DNA of 64,000 nt from Bacterioplanoides sp. SCSIO 12839 (GTDB lineage: Bacteria > Pseudomonadota > Gammaproteobacteria > Pseudomonadales > Oceanobacteraceae). Positions 13,817 through 39,901 of the stretch are shown in pieces. The notes beneath the pieces were generated by a model. That model worked only from the letters and a program-made list of their open reading frames with translations. It ran no database searches and was not told the origin of the DNA. The position numbers and the translations under genes are program-made. Position 1 is the first letter of the stretch. Every line of letters begins with the position of its first letter. The DNA lies in assembly GCF_024397975.1 (NCBI RefSeq), contig NZ_CP073745.1, positions 3,622,501 through 3,686,500 on the forward strand. Reading direction: 5' to 3'.

Positions 13817-15779
13817 TAAAGTTGGGTTTAATAAGGTATTAGTAGCCAACCGTGGCGAAATTGCCGCGCGTGTTATCCGCACCGCTAAAGCACAAGGCTA
13901 CCGCACCGTTGCGGTATTCTCCGAAGCAGACCGGGAAGCGCCACATGTACAGGCAGCTGACGAAGCCGTTTGTATTGGCCCGGCAGCCGTTGGTGAAAGT
14001 TATTTATGCGCTGATAAAATTTTAGCTGCAGCGGCCAAAACCGGTGCCGATGCGATTCACCCGGGTTACGGTTTTTTATCAGAAAACTCTGAGTTTTCTC
14101 AGGCAGCAGAAAAAGCCGGTATTGTATTTATTGGCCCAACCGCTGCTGCTATCGAATTAATGGGCAGCAAGCGCCAATCTAAAATCGCCATGATTGAAGC
14201 TGGTGTACCTTGCATCCCTGGCTACGAAGGTGCTGATCAATCTGATGACGTACTGAAAAAAGCGGCGTTAGAAATTGGCATGCCTGTTATGTTAAAAGCC
14301 AGCGCCGGTGGTGGTGGCCGTGGTATGCGTTTAGTGACGGATGCTGACACGCTGGACGAACATATTCGCTCCGCCCGTTCGGAAGCACAAAATGCTTTTG
14401 GCAGCGGCGAATTAATTATCGAAAAAGCCGTGATGCAACCGCGTCACATCGAGATTCAGGTATTTGCCGATACCTTCGGCAATACCATTTATCTGGGTGA
14501 GCGTGATTGTTCGGTACAACGTCGTCACCAGAAAGTGGTCGAAGAAGCACCGTCTCCGTTTGTTGATGAAAGCCTGCGTAAAACCATGGGTGAAGCCGCC
14601 GTTGCCGCAGCCAAAAGCTGTAATTACCGTGGTGCGGGCACCGTAGAGTTTCTGGTCGACAGCGAGAAGAACTTCTACTTCCTGGAAATGAATACCCGCC
14701 TTCAGGTAGAACACCCGGTAACGGAATTAATTACCGGCCTGGATTTAGTTGCACTGCAATTGCAGGTTGCCGCTGGTGAACCATTGGGTTTAACCCAGGA
14801 CGATATCCAGTTAAATGGCCATGCGATGGAAGTGCGTTTATACGCCGAAGATCCGGCCAATAATTTCGTGCCACAAACCGGTGAGTTATTACTGTGGAAT
14901 CCGGCAGATACTGAAGATGGTTTACGCATAGACAGTGGAATCAAACAAGGCCAAACCGTAACGCCGCATTACGATCCAATGCTGGCGAAATTAATCAGCT
15001 TTGGTGATAACCGTGAACAATCTCGCCGTCGTTTGGTGCGCCTCGTAGAAGATTCCAGTTTATTGGGTATTCAGGATAACCGTGCTTTCCTGGCCGACTG
15101 TTTGAAACACCCTAAGTTTATTGCGGGCGAAGCCACTACAGCGTTTATTGCCGAGCATATGGAAACGTCGGATTGCATGCAGCCGTTAAAAGCACAGCCA
15201 GAAGATATTGCGCTGGCTGCGTTAATTCTGAATGCACCAGACGGTTTCCATAACAATGCGCTGGGCATTCGCTTCGGCAAAATTGCTCATAACGACGATG
15301 TGGTGGAAGTTGAGATTCAGCAAGACCGAGCAGATCGCGGTTTAATTAATGTGAAGTTAGCTGCGACAGAAGAAAGCTTTTCGCTACGTACCATTTCCCG
15401 CGATAGTAACAAGCTGCGTTATGAGTTAGACGGCATTCAGAAGACGATCAGTTTTGTTCAGTCTGCTGAAAACGAATGTTGGATCGATACCACTCGCGGT
15501 AACTTATTCCTGCGAGATGTCACCTTGATTTCTGCCAGCGCCCAGGCCGGTGGTTCGGATCAGGTTCGTGCATCAATGGACGGCGCCATGATTGCGGTAC
15601 TGGTCGAAGCTGGTCAGCAAGTTGAGCAGGGACAAACCCTGGCGGTATTGGAAGCGATGAAGATGGAGCATCCATTAAAAGCGGGCGTTAGTGGCACAGT
15701 GAAAGAAGTACTGATTAATGAAGGTGATCAGGTTAAAGGTCGTCAGCTGTTAATTCAGTTAGAAGAAGCTGACGCTTAA
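13809..15779 (+). CDS. atuF: Geranyl-CoA carboxylase biotin-containing (alpha) subunit
   Basis: A 656-residue biotin carboxylase/carrier fusion. The biotin carboxylase domain starts FNKVLVANRGEIAARVIRTA and includes the ATP-grasp segment KASAGGGGRGMR, RDCSVQRRHQKVVEEAPSP and EMNTRLQVEHPVTE. The C-terminal biotinyl domain has the attachment site EAMKMEH, with Lys carrying biotin. It pairs with AtuC. The frame is open upstream inside atuE, but the ATG at 13809 matches the family N-terminus and gives an 8-bp overlap with atuE. AtuF followed by atuG is the P. aeruginosa order. Confidence 0.87.
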   Translation: MFNKVGFNKVLVANRGEIAARVIRTAKAQGYRTVAVFSEADREAPHVQAADEAVCIGPAAVGESYLCADKILAAAAKTGADAIHPGYGFLSENSEFSQAAEKAGIVFIGPTAAAIELMGSKRQSKIAMIEAGVPCIPGYEGADQSDDVLKKAALEIGMPVMLKASAGGGGRGMRLVTDADTLDEHIRSARSEAQNAFGSGELIIEKAVMQPRHIEIQVFADTFGNTIYLGERDCSVQRRHQKVVEEAPSPFVDESLRKTMGEAAVAAAKSCNYRGAGTVEFLVDSEKNFYFLEMNTRLQVEHPVTELITGLDLVALQLQVAAGEPLGLTQDDIQLNGHAMEVRLYAEDPANNFVPQTGELLLWNPADTEDGLRIDSGIKQGQTVTPHYDPMLAKLISFGDNREQSRRRLVRLVEDSSLLGIQDNRAFLADCLKHPKFIAGEATTAFIAEHMETSDCMQPLKAQPEDIALAALILNAPDGFHNNALGIRFGKIAHNDDVVEVEIQQDRADRGLINVKLAATEESFSLRTISRDSNKLRYELDGIQKTISFVQSAENECWIDTTRGNLFLRDVTLISASAQAGGSDQVRASMDGAMIAVLVEAGQQVEQGQTLAVLEAMKMEHPLKAGVSGTVKEVLINEGDQVKGRQLLIQLEEADA

Positions 15780-15794
15780 TCAAATATTTAAATA

Positions 15795-15893
15795 AAAACC
15801 GGATTACTTTTTGCCGCCGCCCCGAAGGGCCATCCATGGCCCTGCCGGGCGGACGCGACGTCCTGTCGCTGCTTTCAAAAGTAACCCGGTTTT
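15795..15893. repeat. Family-1 intergenic palindromic element, copy 6
   Basis: Outer arms AAAACCGGATTACTTTTTG and CAAAAGTAACCCGGTTTT are complementary over about 18 bp and ended by T residues like a terminator. The core has GGGC-CATCCATG-GCCC and a second hairpin with GCGACG/CGTCC..GTCGC. It lies between atuF and atuG. Confidence 0.8.
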
Positions 15894-15935
15894 CATTCTC
15901 ACAGAATTTACGCATATATACGGGTATGAAAAGAA

Positions 15936-16820
15936 ATGGCTAATTTAAATAACAAAACCATTATTATTACTGGCGCCAGCCGTGGTATTGGTCGTGAAAT
16001 TGCACTGACCTGCGCCCGTGACGGCGCTAATATCGTCATTGCCGCTAAGTCTGACGAGCCACATCCCAAATTAAAAGGCACCATCCACAGTGTTGCTAAA
16101 GAAGTGGAAGAAGCCGGTGGTCAGGCGTTAGCGGTTAAAGTGGATGTTCGTTCCGAAGAAGATGTCGATAACCTGATTGCCAAAACCGTTGAACGTTTTG
16201 GTGGCATCGATGTGATCATTAATAACGCCGGCGCCATTGCTTTAGCTGGTGTTGAAATGACACCACTGAAAAAGCTCGATCTGATGATGCAGGTAAACTT
16301 CCGTGCGGTGTTCCTGTTAAGTCAGAAAGCATTACCACACCTGAAGAAATCCGAACACGGCCATATTTTAAGCCTGTGTCCACCGCTGGATCTGGATCGT
16401 CGCTGGTTGCGTAACCACTCGCCATACACCTTAACCAAATATGGCATGTCGATGCTGACTCTGGGTATGTCGGACGAATTTAAGCGTTATGGTATCGCCG
16501 TGAATGCGCTGTGGCCACGCACCGTTATTCATACTGATGCAACCTCGTTTGGTGGCAAACAATCTTTCGACCGTGCTCGTGGTCCAAAAATTATGGCCGA
16601 TGCCGCTTATGCTCTGCTGCAAAAAGCGGATCGCGAAGTCACAGGTCAGCTGCTGATTGATGAAGAATTCCTGCGCAATGAAGGTGTTACCGATTTTGAA
16701 CAATTCCGTGCTAATCCAGAAAGCGATAAAACCGATTTAATGCCGGATTTATTTGTTCAGGAACCGGAAGCTTACGTGCGTGGCACTGTGCCTCCACTGG
16801 CTGGTTTAGAAGACGAATAA
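15936..16820 (+). CDS. atuG: Short-chain dehydrogenase AtuG
   Basis: A 294-residue SDR resembling the AtuG/HSDL2 branch. The Rossmann motif is TGASRGIGREIA, followed by IVIAAKSDEPHPKLKGTIHS, which is typical of this branch, and NNAGAIAL. The catalytic region has SLCPPLDLD and YTLTKYGM (Tyr-x3-Lys). In P. aeruginosa atuG belongs to the citronellol cluster, but its substrate is not firmly known; oxidation of a pathway alcohol or a beta-oxidation intermediate is possible. The serine normally preceding YxxxK is within LSLCPP, a shifted context seen in this subfamily. Confidence 0.8.
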   Translation: MANLNNKTIIITGASRGIGREIALTCARDGANIVIAAKSDEPHPKLKGTIHSVAKEVEEAGGQALAVKVDVRSEEDVDNLIAKTVERFGGIDVIINNAGAIALAGVEMTPLKKLDLMMQVNFRAVFLLSQKALPHLKKSEHGHILSLCPPLDLDRRWLRNHSPYTLTKYGMSMLTLGMSDEFKRYGIAVNALWPRTVIHTDATSFGGKQSFDRARGPKIMADAAYALLQKADREVTGQLLIDEEFLRNEGVTDFEQFRANPESDKTDLMPDLFVQEPEAYVRGTVPPLAGLEDE

Positions 16821-16842
16821 CACGTCTTAAAAAGGAGTTTTT

Positions 16843-17559
16843 ATGAGCCTGATGAACTTAAGCAACGACGGTAACGTTGCCGTTATTACCTTTACCAATG
16901 GTGCCAACAGTCACAACCTGGCTTTTGCACAACAGCTTGAGTCCTTGTTAAAAGAGGTAGAAGCCGAAAAAAGCTACAAAGCCTTAGTGCTGGCTTCTTC
17001 CGATGAAAAAAGCTGGAGCCAGGGTATTGATGTGCCCTGGATGATGATGTCGATTCAGAGTGGCAAGCACGACGAGGTGAAAACCTTTCTACACACCATG
17101 GATAACTGCTACAAACTTATGCTGCAGTTTCCTATGCCGGTGATTGCGGCGATGAACGGCCATACGTTTGGTAACGGCTCTGTGCTGGCGTGTGCAGCGG
17201 ACTTCCGTTTTATGCGCTCGGACAAAGGTTATTTCTGCTTCCCGGAAGTGGATATGAGTATTCCGTTTATTCCGGCGCTGATCGATATTGTGCTGAAGTC
17301 ACTGCCTGCCTACCGCTATAATGAGATGCTGTTAAGTGGTCGTAAAGTGGGGGCACAGGAACTGCTCGATGATCACTTCCTGCAGGGGATCGCTGAAGGC
17401 AACGATGGCGTGTTACAGGCTGCGATTGAATATGGTGCCAGCTTTAATAAAAGCCGGGCGATTTTTGCTGAGCATAAACGTCGCTTCCACCAGCCAGTGC
17501 TGGATGCCTTGGAGGAAAAGAATCCGCCGATGATTAATGAAATGAATATTTTGCTGTAA
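16843..17559 (+). CDS. Crotonase-family protein, enoyl-CoA isomerase-like
   Basis: A 238-residue crotonase-fold protein with a strong ribosome binding site (AAAGGAG). The oxyanion-hole segments are SWSQGIDVPWMM and NGHTFGNGSVLACAADFRFM, followed by FPEVDMSIPF. The glutamate in FPEVDM and overall length fit the delta3-delta2-enoyl-CoA isomerase branch. The position directly after atuG suggests a role in isomerising unsaturated intermediates from the terpene backbone. It is not part of the P. aeruginosa atu cluster, where this position holds an acyl-CoA ligase (atuH). Exact reaction is inferred. Confidence 0.7.
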   Translation: MSLMNLSNDGNVAVITFTNGANSHNLAFAQQLESLLKEVEAEKSYKALVLASSDEKSWSQGIDVPWMMMSIQSGKHDEVKTFLHTMDNCYKLMLQFPMPVIAAMNGHTFGNGSVLACAADFRFMRSDKGYFCFPEVDMSIPFIPALIDIVLKSLPAYRYNEMLLSGRKVGAQELLDDHFLQGIAEGNDGVLQAAIEYGASFNKSRAIFAEHKRRFHQPVLDALEEKNPPMINEMNILL

Positions 17560-17660
17560 TTTCTTTTTCATAATTATATCGAGTAGCAGATACTGAATGA
17601 CAAAAGGTAATTCAGTATCTTGCCTGATATATCAGACTCCTCTCTTTCAATCCTCCTTAC

Positions 17661-18041
17661 ATGATGAACAATCTTGGTATTTCTGGCTTGTCTGCCTTAT
17701 CAGTTGGTGATAACTTCAGTATTAATAAACGTGCTCGAAATGATGTGTGCGAATTATTTTCTGGAAGGGAATGATCTTGCTAAGGAAGGTTTCAAAGTGA
17801 AATCAGTTAGTTACAGCCAAAAGTTCGAAAATTCCTCGCTAAGATATCAGGCGCGCACACGAATAAACTGTTAAGAGTCATCGGTAAATCTATGTCGAGT
17901 GCTATTTATGAAGAAAGCTGCAGTACCTGTATGAGTGATTTAGAGTGCAAGCTATGTCGAGAGTATTTATGTGAGCCCTGCGTAGTTAAAGTTGAGCGAG
18001 CAATGCTGTCGGCCATATTCAGCTTCGATAAGAAACGATGA
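17661..18041 (+). pseudogene. Frameshifted small Cys-rich ORF, unknown
   Basis: Three abutting open segments give one protein-like reading. 17661-17774 is open from ATG and ends CELFSGRE. The next frame continues GNDLAKEGFKVKSVSYSQKF and FENSSLRYQ to about 17850. The first frame resumes through an ATG at 17892 with CSTCMSDLECKLCREYLCEPC, ending at 18041. Two compensating frameshifts would restore about 125 residues ending in a cysteine cluster. The alternative is chance ORFs in an AT-rich spacer. I do not recognise the family. It is followed at once by an immunity-like ORF, so a decayed toxin tip is conceivable. Confidence 0.35.
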
Positions 18042-18045
18042 AAGA

Positions 18046-18348
18046 TTGGTCTCTTACTTTGTCGAGTGGCATCAAACAAAGAATCTTGGTGATATTGTTC
18101 TAACAAAATCTCCAGAGCTTCTGAAACACCAATACAAACAAGGTAGTACATTCTCCATGGCTGAATTCAAGAGTGACCAAGTTATCGGTTCTGTCACATT
18201 TCGCTCAGATGCACAGTGCGATGCTGAAACAATTTTTATCAACTCAAAACAGCCACTATTTACTGAATATTGTGTATTGGTAAACGAGAAAGAAATCGAC
18301 AATTTCCTAACATTGGTATATGCCAATATTCGGGAATTAAATACTTAA
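18046..18348 (+). CDS. Small hypothetical protein, immunity-protein-like
   Basis: The open frame runs from 17992 (TTG) to 18348; I place the start at the TTG at 18046, giving 100 residues beginning MVSYFVEWHQTKN. A nearby ATG (18038) is in another frame, so the natural start may have been lost by a one-base indel. The strand pattern around VIGSVTFRSDAQCDAETIF and the acidic ending KEIDNFLTLVYANI resemble small immunity proteins of polymorphic toxin loci, such as those I recall as the TriTu family. That match is from memory. Base composition is AT-rich, unlike atu. Could also be part of the upstream broken gene. Confidence 0.4.
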   Translation: MVSYFVEWHQTKNLGDIVLTKSPELLKHQYKQGSTFSMAEFKSDQVIGSVTFRSDAQCDAETIFINSKQPLFTEYCVLVNEKEIDNFLTLVYANIRELNT

Positions 18349-18432
18349 TAAGCGCAGTTTATCGGAACGCCTTTCCGCTGCGATCCAAGCCGTCTGCAGT
18401 TGCGGATGTTATAGTCAAAAGGAGAGTTCGAA

Positions 18433-19680
18433 GTGAAGCAACTTATTTTAGTATTGATTCTTGCCTTTTTGGGCAGCGTTTGTTTTGCAGAAGAATCTAA
18501 GTATTACAATATTGAATATGAAAACGGTGAACTAAAGCTTCCTAAAAAGGACCATTGGTTTATGAAGCTATTCAGGGATCAGGATAGGCAGGTAATTTTC
18601 ATAACAACCCTTATTAAAAGGAATGCCGTACTAAACAAAGACATCATCCTTGTTCCACCTAAGGTATTGGAAAATTTCAAGCTTACAAATAACAGAGTTG
18701 ATAGAGATAAAATTGGTGATTTTTCAATTTCTAAATCAGCATTAGTAAACCCATCAGAAGAATTATTAATAAAAGCTGAGTTCTTTAGTATTGATAAAAG
18801 CAAAGCTTCGTCTTTTGTATCAAGCATAAAGTCGTTATCTTCTGCATATATAAGCAGCTCAACATCACAAGGAGTATCAGAAGTAGCTAATTCAGCTCTA
18901 GAAGCACTCAGCAGCCTAGTTTTTTCATCTGACTCAGTATATGTCAGTTACACAATTCGTGTAGAAGAAGAGAAAAATGGAGGAAAGGTAAACTTGTTTT
19001 TTGATGACACCGGCAATATTTTGAGTAAGCCTTCTTCAGATGGGGATGTTAATGCAAATGTAAGTTTCAAAATCACCTCTTCAAATAATGTTGCAGTTGA
19101 CTTCTCAAGAACATTCCAGAACCAATCTGTTGGGCAAACGTCACTAGACATATTTGATGAACTTACGAATGCAAAAAACAATCAAGAAAAATACGCTGCG
19201 TGTAAAAAACTTGAAGGGGATTTGAATAGAAACTTTGACAAAGAAACCTCCAAGAATTTTTTGGCAATTGCACTAAATGACATAGAATGGGCACAAGATG
19301 AAACAAATAGCAACTGCATGGATCGAGATGACGCTCTTAACTACAAAGTAAAACACGGATTGTCTAATTTAGTTAATTGTGTAGAAGGCTTATGTGTCAA
19401 TACAAAAAGCATCTTATTGCTCCTCAAAGTTAATGCGAATGATCAAGATATTTCTCCTTTTGCTGGCGGTTCAAATGTAAGGGAAATGGATTGTAAATTT
19501 GATAAACTAAAAGCCTTTAAAACAATAAAAGATCAAAAGCTACCTGGTGGTTTGATTGTATACACAAGTAACACTTGTTTGGTTATGTCATCTAACGAGC
19601 ATACATACGAAAGTACATTTACTTGGTTGAATGACAAACTTTTAGGCCATGGATGCACAAAAATTTCATCTGGGTGCTAA
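18433..19680 (+). CDS. Secreted protein of unknown function
   Basis: A 415-residue protein starting at GTG with an AAAGGAG site 7 nt upstream. A clear signal peptide (MKQLILVLILAFLGSVCFA) directs it to the periplasm or beyond. The mature protein has a serine-rich middle (about 125-190, SSAYISSSTSQGVSEVANS), no further membrane segment, and paired cysteines in the C-terminal third (NCVEGLCVN, MDCKF, NTCLV, GCTKISSGC) that could form disulfides. I recognise no family. The DNA is visibly richer in A and T than the atu and fumC genes on either side, suggesting horizontal transfer. The next gene starts 7 bp later. Confidence 0.6.
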   Translation: MKQLILVLILAFLGSVCFAEESKYYNIEYENGELKLPKKDHWFMKLFRDQDRQVIFITTLIKRNAVLNKDIILVPPKVLENFKLTNNRVDRDKIGDFSISKSALVNPSEELLIKAEFFSIDKSKASSFVSSIKSLSSAYISSSTSQGVSEVANSALEALSSLVFSSDSVYVSYTIRVEEEKNGGKVNLFFDDTGNILSKPSSDGDVNANVSFKITSSNNVAVDFSRTFQNQSVGQTSLDIFDELTNAKNNQEKYAACKKLEGDLNRNFDKETSKNFLAIALNDIEWAQDETNSNCMDRDDALNYKVKHGLSNLVNCVEGLCVNTKSILLLLKVNANDQDISPFAGGSNVREMDCKFDKLKAFKTIKDQKLPGGLIVYTSNTCLVMSSNEHTYESTFTWLNDKLLGHGCTKISSGC

Positions 19681-19687
19681 GCGTTAA

Positions 19688-20119
19688 ATGCAAATGATCA
19701 TAGAGTCTTTACGCACAATCCATAAAAAGCACCGTCTGCAAGACGGTGATGTCTCTTCACATACAAAGTCAGCCCAACTTATAACGTCGCAATGGCAGCA
19801 AGCTGTATGTAAGAATAAGATAGAGCCAGAAGTTAGAGTTTCACCAGAAAACAATGAACGTATTGATATCGTTGATTATGGTGAAAATATCGCTTACGAG
19901 TTAAAGGTTTCAGGTAAGAATACTCACCATGAGTTTTATAAAGACCTGATTAAAGTTCTCACATATAACGAGTATCAAGAAACTCAAAACAAAATTACCA
20001 AATTAGTATTTATCAGTGAGCAAGACGGCATCAAGTCATTATCGGCACGCTTAGACTCAAAGTTTATTCAAATGCTATCAGCCAATCATAAATTATCTAT
20101 CGAGCTGGTCAGCATCTAG
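19688..20119 (+). CDS. Possible PD-(D/E)XK-fold protein
   Basis: A 143-residue cytoplasmic protein with no signal peptide. The central segment ERIDIVDYGENIAYELKVSG has the spacing of a PD-(D/E)XK nuclease core: an aspartate in the first strand, then E-x-K (ELK) in the second. It is preceded by a helix (SAQLITSQWQQAV) and followed by FYKDLIKVLTYNEY and the hydrophobic strand TKLVFISEQ, as in restriction-like folds. No exact family is recognised. It sits 7 bp after the secreted protein gene and is probably co-transcribed; that pairing is unusual. An ATG two codons later is an alternative start. Confidence 0.5.
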   Translation: MQMIIESLRTIHKKHRLQDGDVSSHTKSAQLITSQWQQAVCKNKIEPEVRVSPENNERIDIVDYGENIAYELKVSGKNTHHEFYKDLIKVLTYNEYQETQNKITKLVFISEQDGIKSLSARLDSKFIQMLSANHKLSIELVSI

Positions 20120-20207
20120 TAAACGACTGAAGTCGCTCCCTACTCTTCTGACCCATTGAAGCTTTCCCCCACCCCAGACACTTGACGACAACTCATTCAA
20201 AGAACAG

Positions 20208-20226
20208 AATGATATCAATTATCATT
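20208..20226. promoter_or_regulatory. Fur box upstream of fagA-fumC
   Basis: The 19-bp site AATGATATCAATTATCATT differs by only a few bases from the Fur consensus and lies about 30 bp before the fagA ATG. It predicts repression when iron is plentiful and induction under iron limitation. Confidence 0.75.
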
Positions 20227-20254
20227 TGCAAATGAGTATCTAAGAGCATCCATC

Positions 20255-20617
20255 ATGCACAACCCCAGCCCTTTTGCGAAACAGCTGCGCCAGAAGATCC
20301 GCCACGCTCAGGAGCCAGACAACCCAACCCTGTTGATGACCTGGTTCAATCTGGAAGAAAGCGAGTGTGCAAGCTCCAGCCTGGAGCAACAGTGGCAGCG
20401 CTATCGCTCATCGGTTGAGTTATTGCTGGATACCTTTGCCGATGATCTGAATCCGGCCCACTGGCGGGCATTGTGCCTGGATAACCTGGTGCGGCCACTT
20501 GGCTGCCTGCAGCGGCTGGCAAAAAACGACTGGCAAACCCGGGAGCTGCATCGTCTGCTCCAGGAGGTCAGCACCATCTCTCATTATTTTTGCCCTGATT
20601 TTCCCCAGGCTCATTAA
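20255..20617 (+). CDS. fagA: FagA-like protein (Fur-associated gene)
   Basis: A 120-residue soluble, helical, acidic protein beginning MHNPSPFAKQLRQKIRHA, with a Trp-rich body (TWFNLEESE, AHWRALCLDNLVRPLGCL) and no known catalytic motif. The identification rests on context. A Fur box lies just upstream and fumC directly downstream, as in the Pseudomonas aeruginosa fagA-fumC1-orfX-sodM operon. Molecular function of FagA is unknown. The sodM/sodA partner is absent here: after fumC there is a hairpin and then an ABC exporter operon. Confidence 0.65.
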   Translation: MHNPSPFAKQLRQKIRHAQEPDNPTLLMTWFNLEESECASSSLEQQWQRYRSSVELLLDTFADDLNPAHWRALCLDNLVRPLGCLQRLAKNDWQTRELHRLLQEVSTISHYFCPDFPQAH

Positions 20618-20658
20618 GCCACTGAACTAACAACCCCGAACCAAGTTAAGGAATCACA

Positions 20659-22035
20659 ATGACCACACGTATTGAACGCGATAGCATGGGTGAACTGGAA
20701 GTCGCCGAAAATGCACTGTACGCAGCCCAAACCCAACGCGCGATCAACAACTTCCCGGTAAGTGGCCAGAGCATGCCTCAGCCGTTTATCCGTGCCCTGC
20801 TGCTGGCTAAAAAAGCCGCGGCGCAAGCCAATACCAAGCTGGAGCTACTGAACGCCGATACCGGTGCTGCCATCTGCAAAGCGGTGGATGAAGTACTGGG
20901 CGAAGAAGGTTACATGAAACACTTCCCGGTTGATGTGTTCCAGACCGGTTCCGGCACCAGCTCGAACATGAACGCGAACGAAGTGCTGGCAACTCTGGCC
21001 ACCCGCACAGCGGCCGAACTGGTTTCTCCGAATGATCACGTGAACTATGGTCAGAGCAGTAACGATATTATTCCGTCCAGTATTCACATCAGTGCAGCGC
21101 TGGAAATTAATGAGAAGCTGATCCCGGCGCTGACTTACCTGGCGGACGCCATTAAAGCCAAAGCCGCGACGCTGAAAGATCAGATTAAAACCGGCCGTAC
21201 TCACCTGATGGACGCCATGCCGGTACGTATGGAACAGAGCCTGCTGAGCTGGGCAACTCAGATCGATCAGAATATCGAAGCCATCAAAAACACGCTGCCG
21301 ATGCTGCAAAGCCTGGCGCAAGGCGGTACGGCGGTTGGGACGGGCATTAACGCACACGAAGATTTCGCTGAGAAATTTAATCAGGAACTGACCGAGCTGA
21401 CCGGCGTGAAATTCACTAAAGCCGCCAACCTATTCACCCATATCGGCACTCAGGACATCGCGGTCTCTGTATCGGGTCAGCTGAAGATGACAGCGGTTTC
21501 GCTGATGAAAATTGCCAATGACCTGCGCTGGATGAACTCTGGCCCACTGGCTGGCCTGAGCGAAATCGAACTGGAAGCACTGCAGCCGGGTTCTTCCATC
21601 ATGCCGGGCAAAGTCAACCCGGTGATCCCGGAAGCCACTGCGATGGTTGCGGCTCAGGTGATGGGTAACGACACCACCATCACAGTGGCTGGCCAGTCGG
21701 GTAACTTTGAATTAAACGTGATGCTGCCATTGATTGCCCGCAATCTGCTGGAAAGCATTGAGCTGATTGCTAACGTTTCCCGTCTGCTGGCAGACAAAGC
21801 CATCACCAGCTTTAAAGTAAACGAAGACAGCCTGAAGCAGGCGCTGTCACGCAATCCGATTCTGGTCACCGCACTTAACCCAATTATTGGTTACTTAAAA
21901 GCGGCTGAAATTGCCAAGCAGGCGTACAAGGAGGGTCGGCCGGTGATTGATGTGGCGCTGGAGAATACTGACCTGTCTCGTGAAGAGTTAGAACGTTTGC
22001 TGGACCCGGCCAAACTAACGCAGGGCGGTATCTGA
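20659..22035 (+). CDS. fumC: Class II fumarate hydratase
   Basis: A 458-residue iron-independent fumarase that interconverts fumarate and malate in the TCA cycle. The superfamily signature GSSIMPGKVNP is intact, as are TGSGTSSNMNANEV, GRTHLMDAMPV and the N-terminal DSMGELEV. Length is standard. The Fur box before fagA suggests the oxygen-stable, iron-free enzyme replaces iron-sulfur fumarases during iron starvation. The fagA gap is about 40 bp and the ATG has AAGGA upstream. Confidence 0.96.
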   Translation: MTTRIERDSMGELEVAENALYAAQTQRAINNFPVSGQSMPQPFIRALLLAKKAAAQANTKLELLNADTGAAICKAVDEVLGEEGYMKHFPVDVFQTGSGTSSNMNANEVLATLATRTAAELVSPNDHVNYGQSSNDIIPSSIHISAALEINEKLIPALTYLADAIKAKAATLKDQIKTGRTHLMDAMPVRMEQSLLSWATQIDQNIEAIKNTLPMLQSLAQGGTAVGTGINAHEDFAEKFNQELTELTGVKFTKAANLFTHIGTQDIAVSVSGQLKMTAVSLMKIANDLRWMNSGPLAGLSEIELEALQPGSSIMPGKVNPVIPEATAMVAAQVMGNDTTITVAGQSGNFELNVMLPLIARNLLESIELIANVSRLLADKAITSFKVNEDSLKQALSRNPILVTALNPIIGYLKAAEIAKQAYKEGRPVIDVALENTDLSREELERLLDPAKLTQGGI

Positions 22036-39023: not shown

Positions 39024-39326
39024 GTGGAACTGTCTCCCAGAGAAAAAGATAAATTACTGTTGTTTGTTGCGGCTGAACTGGCGCAAAAACGCAAAGACCG
39101 TGGTGTAAAACTTAACTACCCGGAAAGCATTGCCTTAATCAGCGCTTTTATTATGGAAGGTGCGCGCGATGGCCGAACCGTTGCCGATTTAATGAATGCG
39201 GGTCGTCAGGTATTAAGCCGGGATGATGTGATGGATGGTATTGCTGAGATGTTGCCGGAAGTGCAGGTGGAAGCAACATTCCCCGACGGAACTAAGCTCG
39301 TCACCGTCCACAACCCCATCGCTTGA
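39024..39326 (+). CDS. ureA: Urease gamma subunit
   Basis: A 100-residue urease gamma subunit. It begins [21 protein letters not shown] and includes [41 protein letters not shown] and the ending [13 protein letters not shown], all highly conserved in UreA. It starts at GTG with CTGGAG upstream. With UreB and UreC it forms the (alpha-beta-gamma)3 apoenzyme hydrolysing urea to ammonia and carbamate. Confidence 0.97.
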
Positions 39327-39446
39327 AAACTATTTGCGTTGTCATAGCGGTGTTAAAAATGAACTCGAAAATGCTCACTTATAACCACATAAGCTCCACT
39401 TTCTCGTTCATTTTTTCCTTGCTCTGACTGCCTCAATGACGTTTTC
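39327..39446. repeat. Family-2 MITE-like intergenic element, copy 1
   Basis: About 120 bp with outer ends GAAAAC..TGCG / ..GACGTTTTC. Inner arms AAAAATGAAC and GTTCATTTTT are complementary; the loop has AATGCTCACTTATAA. It fills the ureA-ureB gap. Confidence 0.8.
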
Positions 39447-39468
39447 AATAGATAAAAGGAGAAGAAAT

Positions 39469-39774: not shown

Positions 39775-39780
39775 CAGGGT

Positions 39781-39901
39781 GAAAACTACCTGCGTTGCCA
39801 TAGCCGCGTTAAAAATCAGATATAAATGCTCATTTATGACTATAAACTGCGCTTTCTCTCTGATTTTTGCCTTGCTCTGGCTGCCTCGCAAACGTTTTCA
39901 C
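39781..39901. repeat. Family-2 MITE-like intergenic element, copy 2
   Basis: 121 bp. Terminal arms GAAAAC...TGCG pair with CGCA..GTTTTC; inner arms AAAAATCAGA/TCTGATTTTT. The loop has AATGCTCATTTATGACTATA. It fills the ureB-ureC gap and gives the clearest full-length copy. Confidence 0.85.

Follow-up and report, generated by a model that had tools for sequence, protein, structure and literature searches.

The stretch of DNA analysed here, hereafter the window, comprises 64,000 nucleotides from Bacterioplanoides sp. SCSIO 12839 and includes two adjacent open reading frames of the plus strand, orf1 (18433-19680) and orf2 (19688-20119), which are separated by 7 bp (19681-19687) and which, as an earlier note on this DNA had claimed, are real. 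The former encodes a putatively secreted orphan protein of 415 aa with a GTG start and eight C-terminal cysteines, and the latter a 143-aa integron cassette protein with the motif D60 and E71-x-K73. Both genes lie in an AT-rich insertion (approximately 17560 to 20146), found between an enoyl-CoA-hydratase-like gene and a 120-aa gene upstream of fumC, so that the interval of 18433-20119 given in the earlier note is correctly placed within AT-rich DNA, but is too short. Ahead of orf1, the insertion carries an attI-like leader copy on the plus strand (17680-17873), which ends at the GTTA of positions 17870-17873, followed by a possible small Cys-rich ORF of 49 aa (MSSAIYEESCSTCMSDLECKLCREYLCEPC..., 17892-18041, plus strand), which is the first after the leader and was delimited by eye within the stop-to-stop ORF 17811-18041. 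An ORF of 118 aa with an uncertain start (17992-18348, plus strand) is weakly similar to the immunity protein TriTu (PF24689, E 0.0051, 17.1 bits against a cut-off of 27), and the hairpin-bearing stretch behind it (18349-18412) may be the attC remnant of a first cassette.

This insertion has an empty counterpart in G001, a genome of the same genus, in which the enoyl-CoA-hydratase-like gene and the 120-aa gene are separated by about 280 bp, in comparison with 2.7 kb in the window. The flanks of the two loci are syntenic (blastn identities of 77-84% for the left flank and 84% for the right one), with five flanking proteins that are 62-98% identical, and the homology picks up again near position 20147, while the comparison places the left edge only to within 17560-17680. 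The GC content is 0.34-0.37 in seven 500-base segments starting at positions 18250 to 19750 and 0.38-0.40 in the preceding three (17500-18499), as against 0.46-0.51 in segments starting at 15000 to 17000 and 0.53-0.55 in those starting at 20500 to 21500, at fumC, which bears out the contrast with the atu and fumC neighbours that had been remarked upon. Given that G001 lacks the segment from about 17560 to 20146, it was either acquired here or lost in G001, and the AT-rich composition favours acquisition, in agreement with the earlier description of a foreign cassette. Immediately to the right, before the 120-aa gene, positions 20170-20250 contain GATATCAATTATCATTTGC, which we take to be a Fur-box-like string, and its core ATCAATTATCATTT is retained in G001.

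In other bacteria, orf2 is an integron cassette gene. A scan of a genome collection, which relies on short exact patterns and detects close relatives only, produced 24 pattern matches, among which seven are relatives of orf2 with 62-83% identity over nearly the full length, found in distant bacteria, namely Marinomonas, Tepidicella, Gilvimarinus (two), a Marinobacter MAG, an epsilonproteobacterial MAG, and a Thermodesulfovibrionales MAG. Five of these (loci L003-L006 and L009) are flanked by a GTTAAAT box on the 5' side and by an attC site on the 3' side, the latter, TTTAAC...CGTTR, coming directly after the gene, and four of the five attC sites were also listed by the pattern scan. The string GTTAAATG is found immediately 5' of the gene in L003, L004, L005, and L006, and its place is taken by GTTAAATGTGAAATAATG in L009. 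The bottom strand of the attC sites forms hairpins with z-scores of -1.7 in L003 (15 of 200 shuffles being as good) and -2.3 in L004 (6 of 200). The copies in L007, which is broken by a stop, and L008 have neither the GTTAAAT nor the attC boxes.

No match to orf2 was found in plasmids, phages, or viral contigs, and an orf2 profile run against 390 genomes of the order, 369 of the class, and 398 of the phylum recovered only its own genome and two weak partial matches. One of the latter (L018) matches no Pfam or PADLOC family, and the other was dropped, as by eye it resembles an unrelated enzyme. In the Thermodesulfovibrionales locus (L009:591-2628), a phage-type tyrosine recombinase (Pfam Phage_integrase, 3.1e-41) comes after the orf2 relative, together with what appears by eye to be an IS91-family transposase.

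In the window, GTTAAATG also stands directly 5' of orf2, and a cassette boundary therefore lies between orf1 and orf2. The corresponding GTTAAAT (19684-19690, plus strand), which overlaps the ATG of orf2, conforms to the GTTRRRY core box and is the R' box of the boundary. The sequence AAGCGTTAAAT ahead of orf2 looks by eye like the 3' end of an attC site. On the other side of the gene, the best match in 17500-20700 of the second of two attC models described below falls at 20114-20186 on the plus strand (10.4 bits, E 0.28), as far from the stop codon as the attC sites of L003, L005, and L006, and probably represents the decayed attC of the orf2 cassette; the next-best match in this interval reaches 8.4 bits. 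All the attC-model matches in the window are weak, and no hairpin in it beats shuffled sequences. The attC models give no match in the stretch behind the TriTu-like ORF (18349-18412), and positions 18335-18425 fold no better than shuffles (z -0.9 and -0.7).

As for orf1, its product begins with MKQLILVLILAFLGSVCFA, a putative signal peptide by eye, and its cysteines (17, 257, 295, 316, 321, 354, 382, 408, and 415) comprise one in the leader peptide and eight in the last 160 residues, so that both the signal peptide and the Cys-rich end attributed to this protein were recovered. Neither orf1 nor orf2 reaches any curated cut-off in Pfam or NCBIfam, as expected from the statement that no family could be recognised in either. 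For orf1, PADLOC returned no match and PDB sequences only chance-level ones, and its single-sequence structure model (pLDDT 36.5) is useless. Its own copy apart, no relative was found in 55 related genomes (one of them its own) or in 390 genomes of the order, nor among plasmids, phages, or viral contigs, and a tblastn search of 22 loci, all seven orf2 loci among them, gave no match at E 0.5. A possible decayed attC, ATCTAAC GAGCA ... TGCT AAGC GTTAAAT (19590-19689, plus strand), overlaps the end of the gene; according to a pattern scan, its boxes at 19590 and 19683 are complementary at 6 of 7 positions, and its fold is no better than that of shuffles. With this one possible boundary, together with its position, orf1 may be a cassette in its own right.

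The leader upstream of these genes is a repeat that ends at a cassette junction. The full-length form has about 240 bp, from the middle of which the window copy lacks approximately 42 bp, and the part from about 17731 to 17873 recurs in six more copies of 138-151 bp, with 81-87% identity, in the same chromosome. Four further matches of 42-71 bp, which are short or diverged, bring the chromosomal total to 11, seven of them long, the window copy included. Six of the seven long copies, that of the window among them, terminate in GTTA and one in ATTA, and the long copies end at or just before at least one small ORF; at c392 the listed ORF starts inside the leader, and at c1086 just one small ORF follows. 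The window leader has no match in plasmids. By eye, an inverted repeat, GTGTGCGTGC ... GCACGCACAC, is present inside the leader (for example in L039 and L040), with its arms about 115 nt apart, and is perfect in some copies and broken in others.

The 3' end of the leader was compared with junctions, chosen by eye, at three intI loci, for which the long copies and the diverged copies c2414, c2702, and c1131 were taken in and c1592 was left out. The last 19 nt of the window leader agree at 16 positions with the junctions of both L024 (Marinomonas foliarum) and L023 (Gilvimarinus), two loci of other genera whose intI exceeds the cut-off and whose intI frames each hold one stop. Across the seven long copies, the agreement is 15-16 of 19 with L024 and 14-17 of 19 with L023, and is lower (12-13 of 19) with L028, in which the intI frame is open. 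The diverged copies c2702 and c1131 agree with L024 at 15 and 16 and with L023 at 13 and 12 of the 19 positions, and c2414 with both at seven. When 647 GTTA sites in 11 stretches of the genome were considered, seven reached at least 15 of 19 to L024, which is the number of GTTA-ending leader copies that do so (six long and one diverged), and five reached this value to L023, where the matching leader copies are also five. Over its full length, the likeness of the leader to the attI region of L024 is marginal, given that one copy beats all 200 shuffles and another is equalled by 40 of 200, and its likeness to the attI regions of L022, L023, and L028 does not rise above shuffles. The leader is described here as attI-like, a designation that derives from its 3' end and its position.

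The search for attC sites connects these leader copies with cassettes. A model of nine attC sites built from the orf2 loci re-finds its own sites by construction and adds weak extra sites in L003. This first attC model, which was built exclusively from other genomes and thus provides an independent check, and with which 150 of 708 whole-genome candidates were scored, gave seven matches in the entire genome (E <= 10), six of which fall within 1.6 kb after a leader copy and on its strand. With a second model, built from 14 sites, matches at E < 0.01 were obtained behind the leader in L039 (three), L040 (two), L041 (three), L054 (one, with an additional match at E 0.04), and L059 (one); five of these ten matches went into the building of this second model, and these five score 17.8-28.6 bits with the first model, for which none of them had served. 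The leader is thus followed on its own strand by attC-model matches in 5 of the 11 copies, and the six others, the window copy included, have none behind them. No integron integrase over the cut-off is found in the genome, which is a single contig, and no intI stands beside the leader as in a complete integron; the best match to TIGR02249, a 332-aa frame, scores 22.2 bits against a required 265, and matches below the cut-off are likewise given by all 14 control genomes.

A parallel arrangement occurs in a second genus. In Marinomonas foliarum, the orf2 relative (L003) lies behind a 306-bp copy, with 76% identity, of the intI-attI interval of its own genome, and this match stops at the cassette junction. 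The sole intI over the cut-off in that genome is on a different contig, at coordinates that exceed the length of the L003 contig, so that attI is duplicated here at a distance from intI, and orf2 is the first cassette behind the duplicate.

Taken together, these observations make it probable that the region holds an integron cassette array which is in decay and has no integrase, and which is headed by one of the 11 dispersed attI-type leader matches. The array would consist of the leader (17680-17873) and two or three cassettes, namely the TriTu-like or the small Cys-rich ORF, orf1, and orf2, which would have been inserted by an integron integrase that either was supplied in trans or has disappeared in the meantime. 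Transcription of the cassettes may start at a promoter within the leader or ahead of it, to which a promoter scan of the insertion lent no support (7 found, compared to 9.1 in shuffles).

The nature of the orf2 product can be approached through its sequence. It contains ERIDIVDYGENIAYELKVSG, as the earlier note had stated, and D60, E71, and K73 are invariant in all seven aligned rows (the window protein and six relatives, L007 being left out), and the D-x10-E-x-K motif that is kept in this way corresponds to the conserved D-x(n)-E-x-K of PD-(D/E)XK nucleases, so that the restriction-like motif pointed out in the earlier note is well founded. All seven rows also match Tox-REase-9 (PF15650) weakly, with a best E of 7.3e-5, in a Pfam scan that also yields chance-like matches, in one row down to E 0.0025; the window protein matches over residues 26-87, and its 16.2 bits are below the curated cut-off of 27.3. 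PADLOC returned no named system protein and no nuclease family, and only the "HTH" model PDLC01153 (E 6.7e-4; 4 of 7 aligned rows, E 5e-4), which gave no signal, controls included, when it was pursued in 93 genomes.

The gene is under purifying selection, with a dN of 0.086 for the comparison of the window with L003, in which dS, at about 2, is close to saturation, and dN/dS pairs of 0.04/0.34 for L004-L005 and 0.031/0.11 for L005-L006. Structure prediction, which had been proposed as a check, was of little help, given that the AlphaFold model from the 7-row alignment is too weak (pLDDT 62.1) and has no Foldseek match at E <= 0.001, and that the orf2 profile finds nothing better than E 0.26 among PDB sequences. 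The best VIA neighbours of the model are RNase H/integrase-like rather than PD-(D/E)XK, with a top Z of 5.6 to a retroviral integrase, and these neighbours, RNase H-like and others, do not speak for a PD-(D/E)XK fold and, given the poor quality of the model, were not taken further. A PD-(D/E)XK fold is plausible, and the protein would probably fold as a small nuclease of this type, with a metal site at D60/E71/K73.

Defence genes are found in the surroundings of the orf2 family. A PADLOC scan of ten chosen neighbouring proteins from five of the seven loci (L003 and L005-L008, with L004 and L009 left out) revealed strong defence matches within 2 kb of the orf2 relative in three of the seven, represented by Lamassu LmuB in L006 (6e-69), a type IV restriction enzyme in L005 (2.4e-31), and PDC-M27C (2.5e-72) and a type I methylase (7e-163) in L007, where a helicase and type I RM surround the locus; the matches of the neighbours in L003 and L008 are weak. 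Among nine chosen proteins from the arrays of the window's own genome, two gave strong defence matches, two weak ones, and five none. One of the strong matches is a fused AriAB of the PARIS system (L059:2801-4417, that is, 1132800-1134416 of the chromosome; E 1.5e-196); its array follows a diverged copy of the leader, and a weak attC-model match lies just ahead of the gene. The other, in L058 (2413800-2414500 of the chromosome, minus strand), is a 222-aa HNH protein (2.2e-27), similar to CBASS-type effector endonucleases (8.7e-27); it is encoded by the first gene after a diverged leader, and many small ORFs come one after another behind it.

Orf2 most likely works alone, and it is tentatively predicted, at somewhat less than even chances, to be a single-gene cassette directed against DNA in phage defence. 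The defence character put forward in the earlier note survives to this extent, for the strong matches lie near three of the seven relatives, and not as a property of the pair of genes. A competing possibility, itself doubtful, is that the cassette carries a housekeeping-like or stress DNA-repair nuclease, or an immunity or antitoxin protein. The weak likeness to Tox-REase-9, together with the TriTu-like ORF nearby, points to toxin/immunity biology, and no nuclease family of PADLOC was matched, whereas the defence genes at three of the seven loci and in the sister arrays argue in the other direction.

The leader could also be a host-specific repeat of another kind, such as a promoter or RNA repeat or a non-autonomous mobile element, at which foreign genes settle. 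The marginal or absent likeness to attI regions over the full length would be in line with this, as would the sharp left end of the leader within unrelated flanks and the inverted repeat GTGTGCG/CGCACAC seen by eye in several copies. Nevertheless, the ending of six of the seven long copies in GTTA (and of the remaining one in ATTA) close to where the first small ORF begins, the match of all seven to two attI-type junctions at 14-17 of 19 positions, and the location of six of the seven whole-genome attC-model matches behind a leader copy make such a repeat a rather unlikely explanation.

Even less likely is the insertion of a lone orf2 cassette at an attG site, neither attI nor attC, at the end of an older foreign gene, orf1, with the leader present by coincidence. 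Cassette insertion at attG has been described (PMC12901181, PMC12444791), and no convincing attC precedes orf2; against this, the insertion itself contains, 1.8 kb upstream and in the same orientation, a leader of the kind that heads arrays elsewhere, and the AAGCGTTAAAT before orf2 resembles, by eye, the 3' end of an attC.

Finally, the functional two-gene cassette that the earlier note had envisaged, in which a secreted protein and a cytoplasmic nuclease act jointly in defence or competition, is largely refuted and highly improbable in spite of the 7-bp gap, the common strand, and the shared AT-rich composition, given that orf1 is missing from all seven orf2 loci and, its own copy apart, from all the collections searched, so that no conserved linkage of the two was found in any genome, that a cassette boundary separates them, and that orf2 is first behind an attI copy in L003 and comes after another attC in L004. 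The adjacency of the two genes looks like an accident of cassette order, and orf1 would act apart from orf2, outside the cytoplasm.

Returning to the cassette array headed by an attI-type leader, a broader interpretation, which we regard as evenly balanced, is that the genome harbours a distributed integron, in which about ten attI landing pads each seed a small cassette array, some with defence genes, and the integrase is absent, lost, or borrowed, acting in trans. Clusters of at least two attC sites without a neighbouring integron integrase are known as CALINs, and the arrays at L039, L040, and L041, each with two or more attC-model matches (E < 0.01) and no nearby intI, belong to this class, with L054 approaching it through one clear and one weak match. 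The window array falls outside it, having no clear attC. CALINs are defined by attC alone, whereas each array of this genome has a copy of the repeated attI-like leader at its head.

Neither integron cassettes nor attC clusters that lack an integrase are new, and defence genes in integrons are known from work of 2025, as described in PMC12409362. According to that description of Darracq 2025, Getz 2025, and Kieffer 2025, sedentary chromosomal integrons are presented as anti-phage biobanks, which resemble the present arrays in their small single-gene cassettes without known function and in the presence of some defence genes; they differ in having one array at the integrase, in contrast to several short, scattered arrays with no intI found. 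The attG insertions of Loot 2024, as described in PMC12901181 and PMC12444791, similarly place cassettes outside the integron platform, but attG is said there to diverge from classical att sites, whereas the landing sites considered here are repeats with 81-87% identity that end like attI. Tox-REase-9, in turn, is a restriction-endonuclease-fold toxin domain, and orf2, which matches it weakly in all seven aligned rows, departs from it in being a free-standing protein of 143 aa with no toxin delivery part and, in the window, a score below the cut-off. No description of dispersed attI copies was found in the titles and the beginnings of abstracts among the matches listed, a search that lay mostly outside the subscription literature.

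If the leader is indeed an attI site, integron capture would not be bound to a single array beside intI, and duplicated attI sites would provide several first positions, which could explain some of the integrase-less attC arrays. The attI duplicate away from intI in Marinomonas foliarum suggests that the duplication of attI may be a general route by which cassettes are spread around a genome. In addition, orf2 defines a cassette family that is small and has been transferred widely, that probably has a nuclease site, and that has defence genes among its neighbours.

Elsewhere in the window, a pattern scan detected two similar hairpins with long inverted repeats, of about 120 bp each, at 39324-39447 and 39780-39900 (TGAAAACTA...GTTTTCA), which are probably a dispersed repeat without relation to the insertion.
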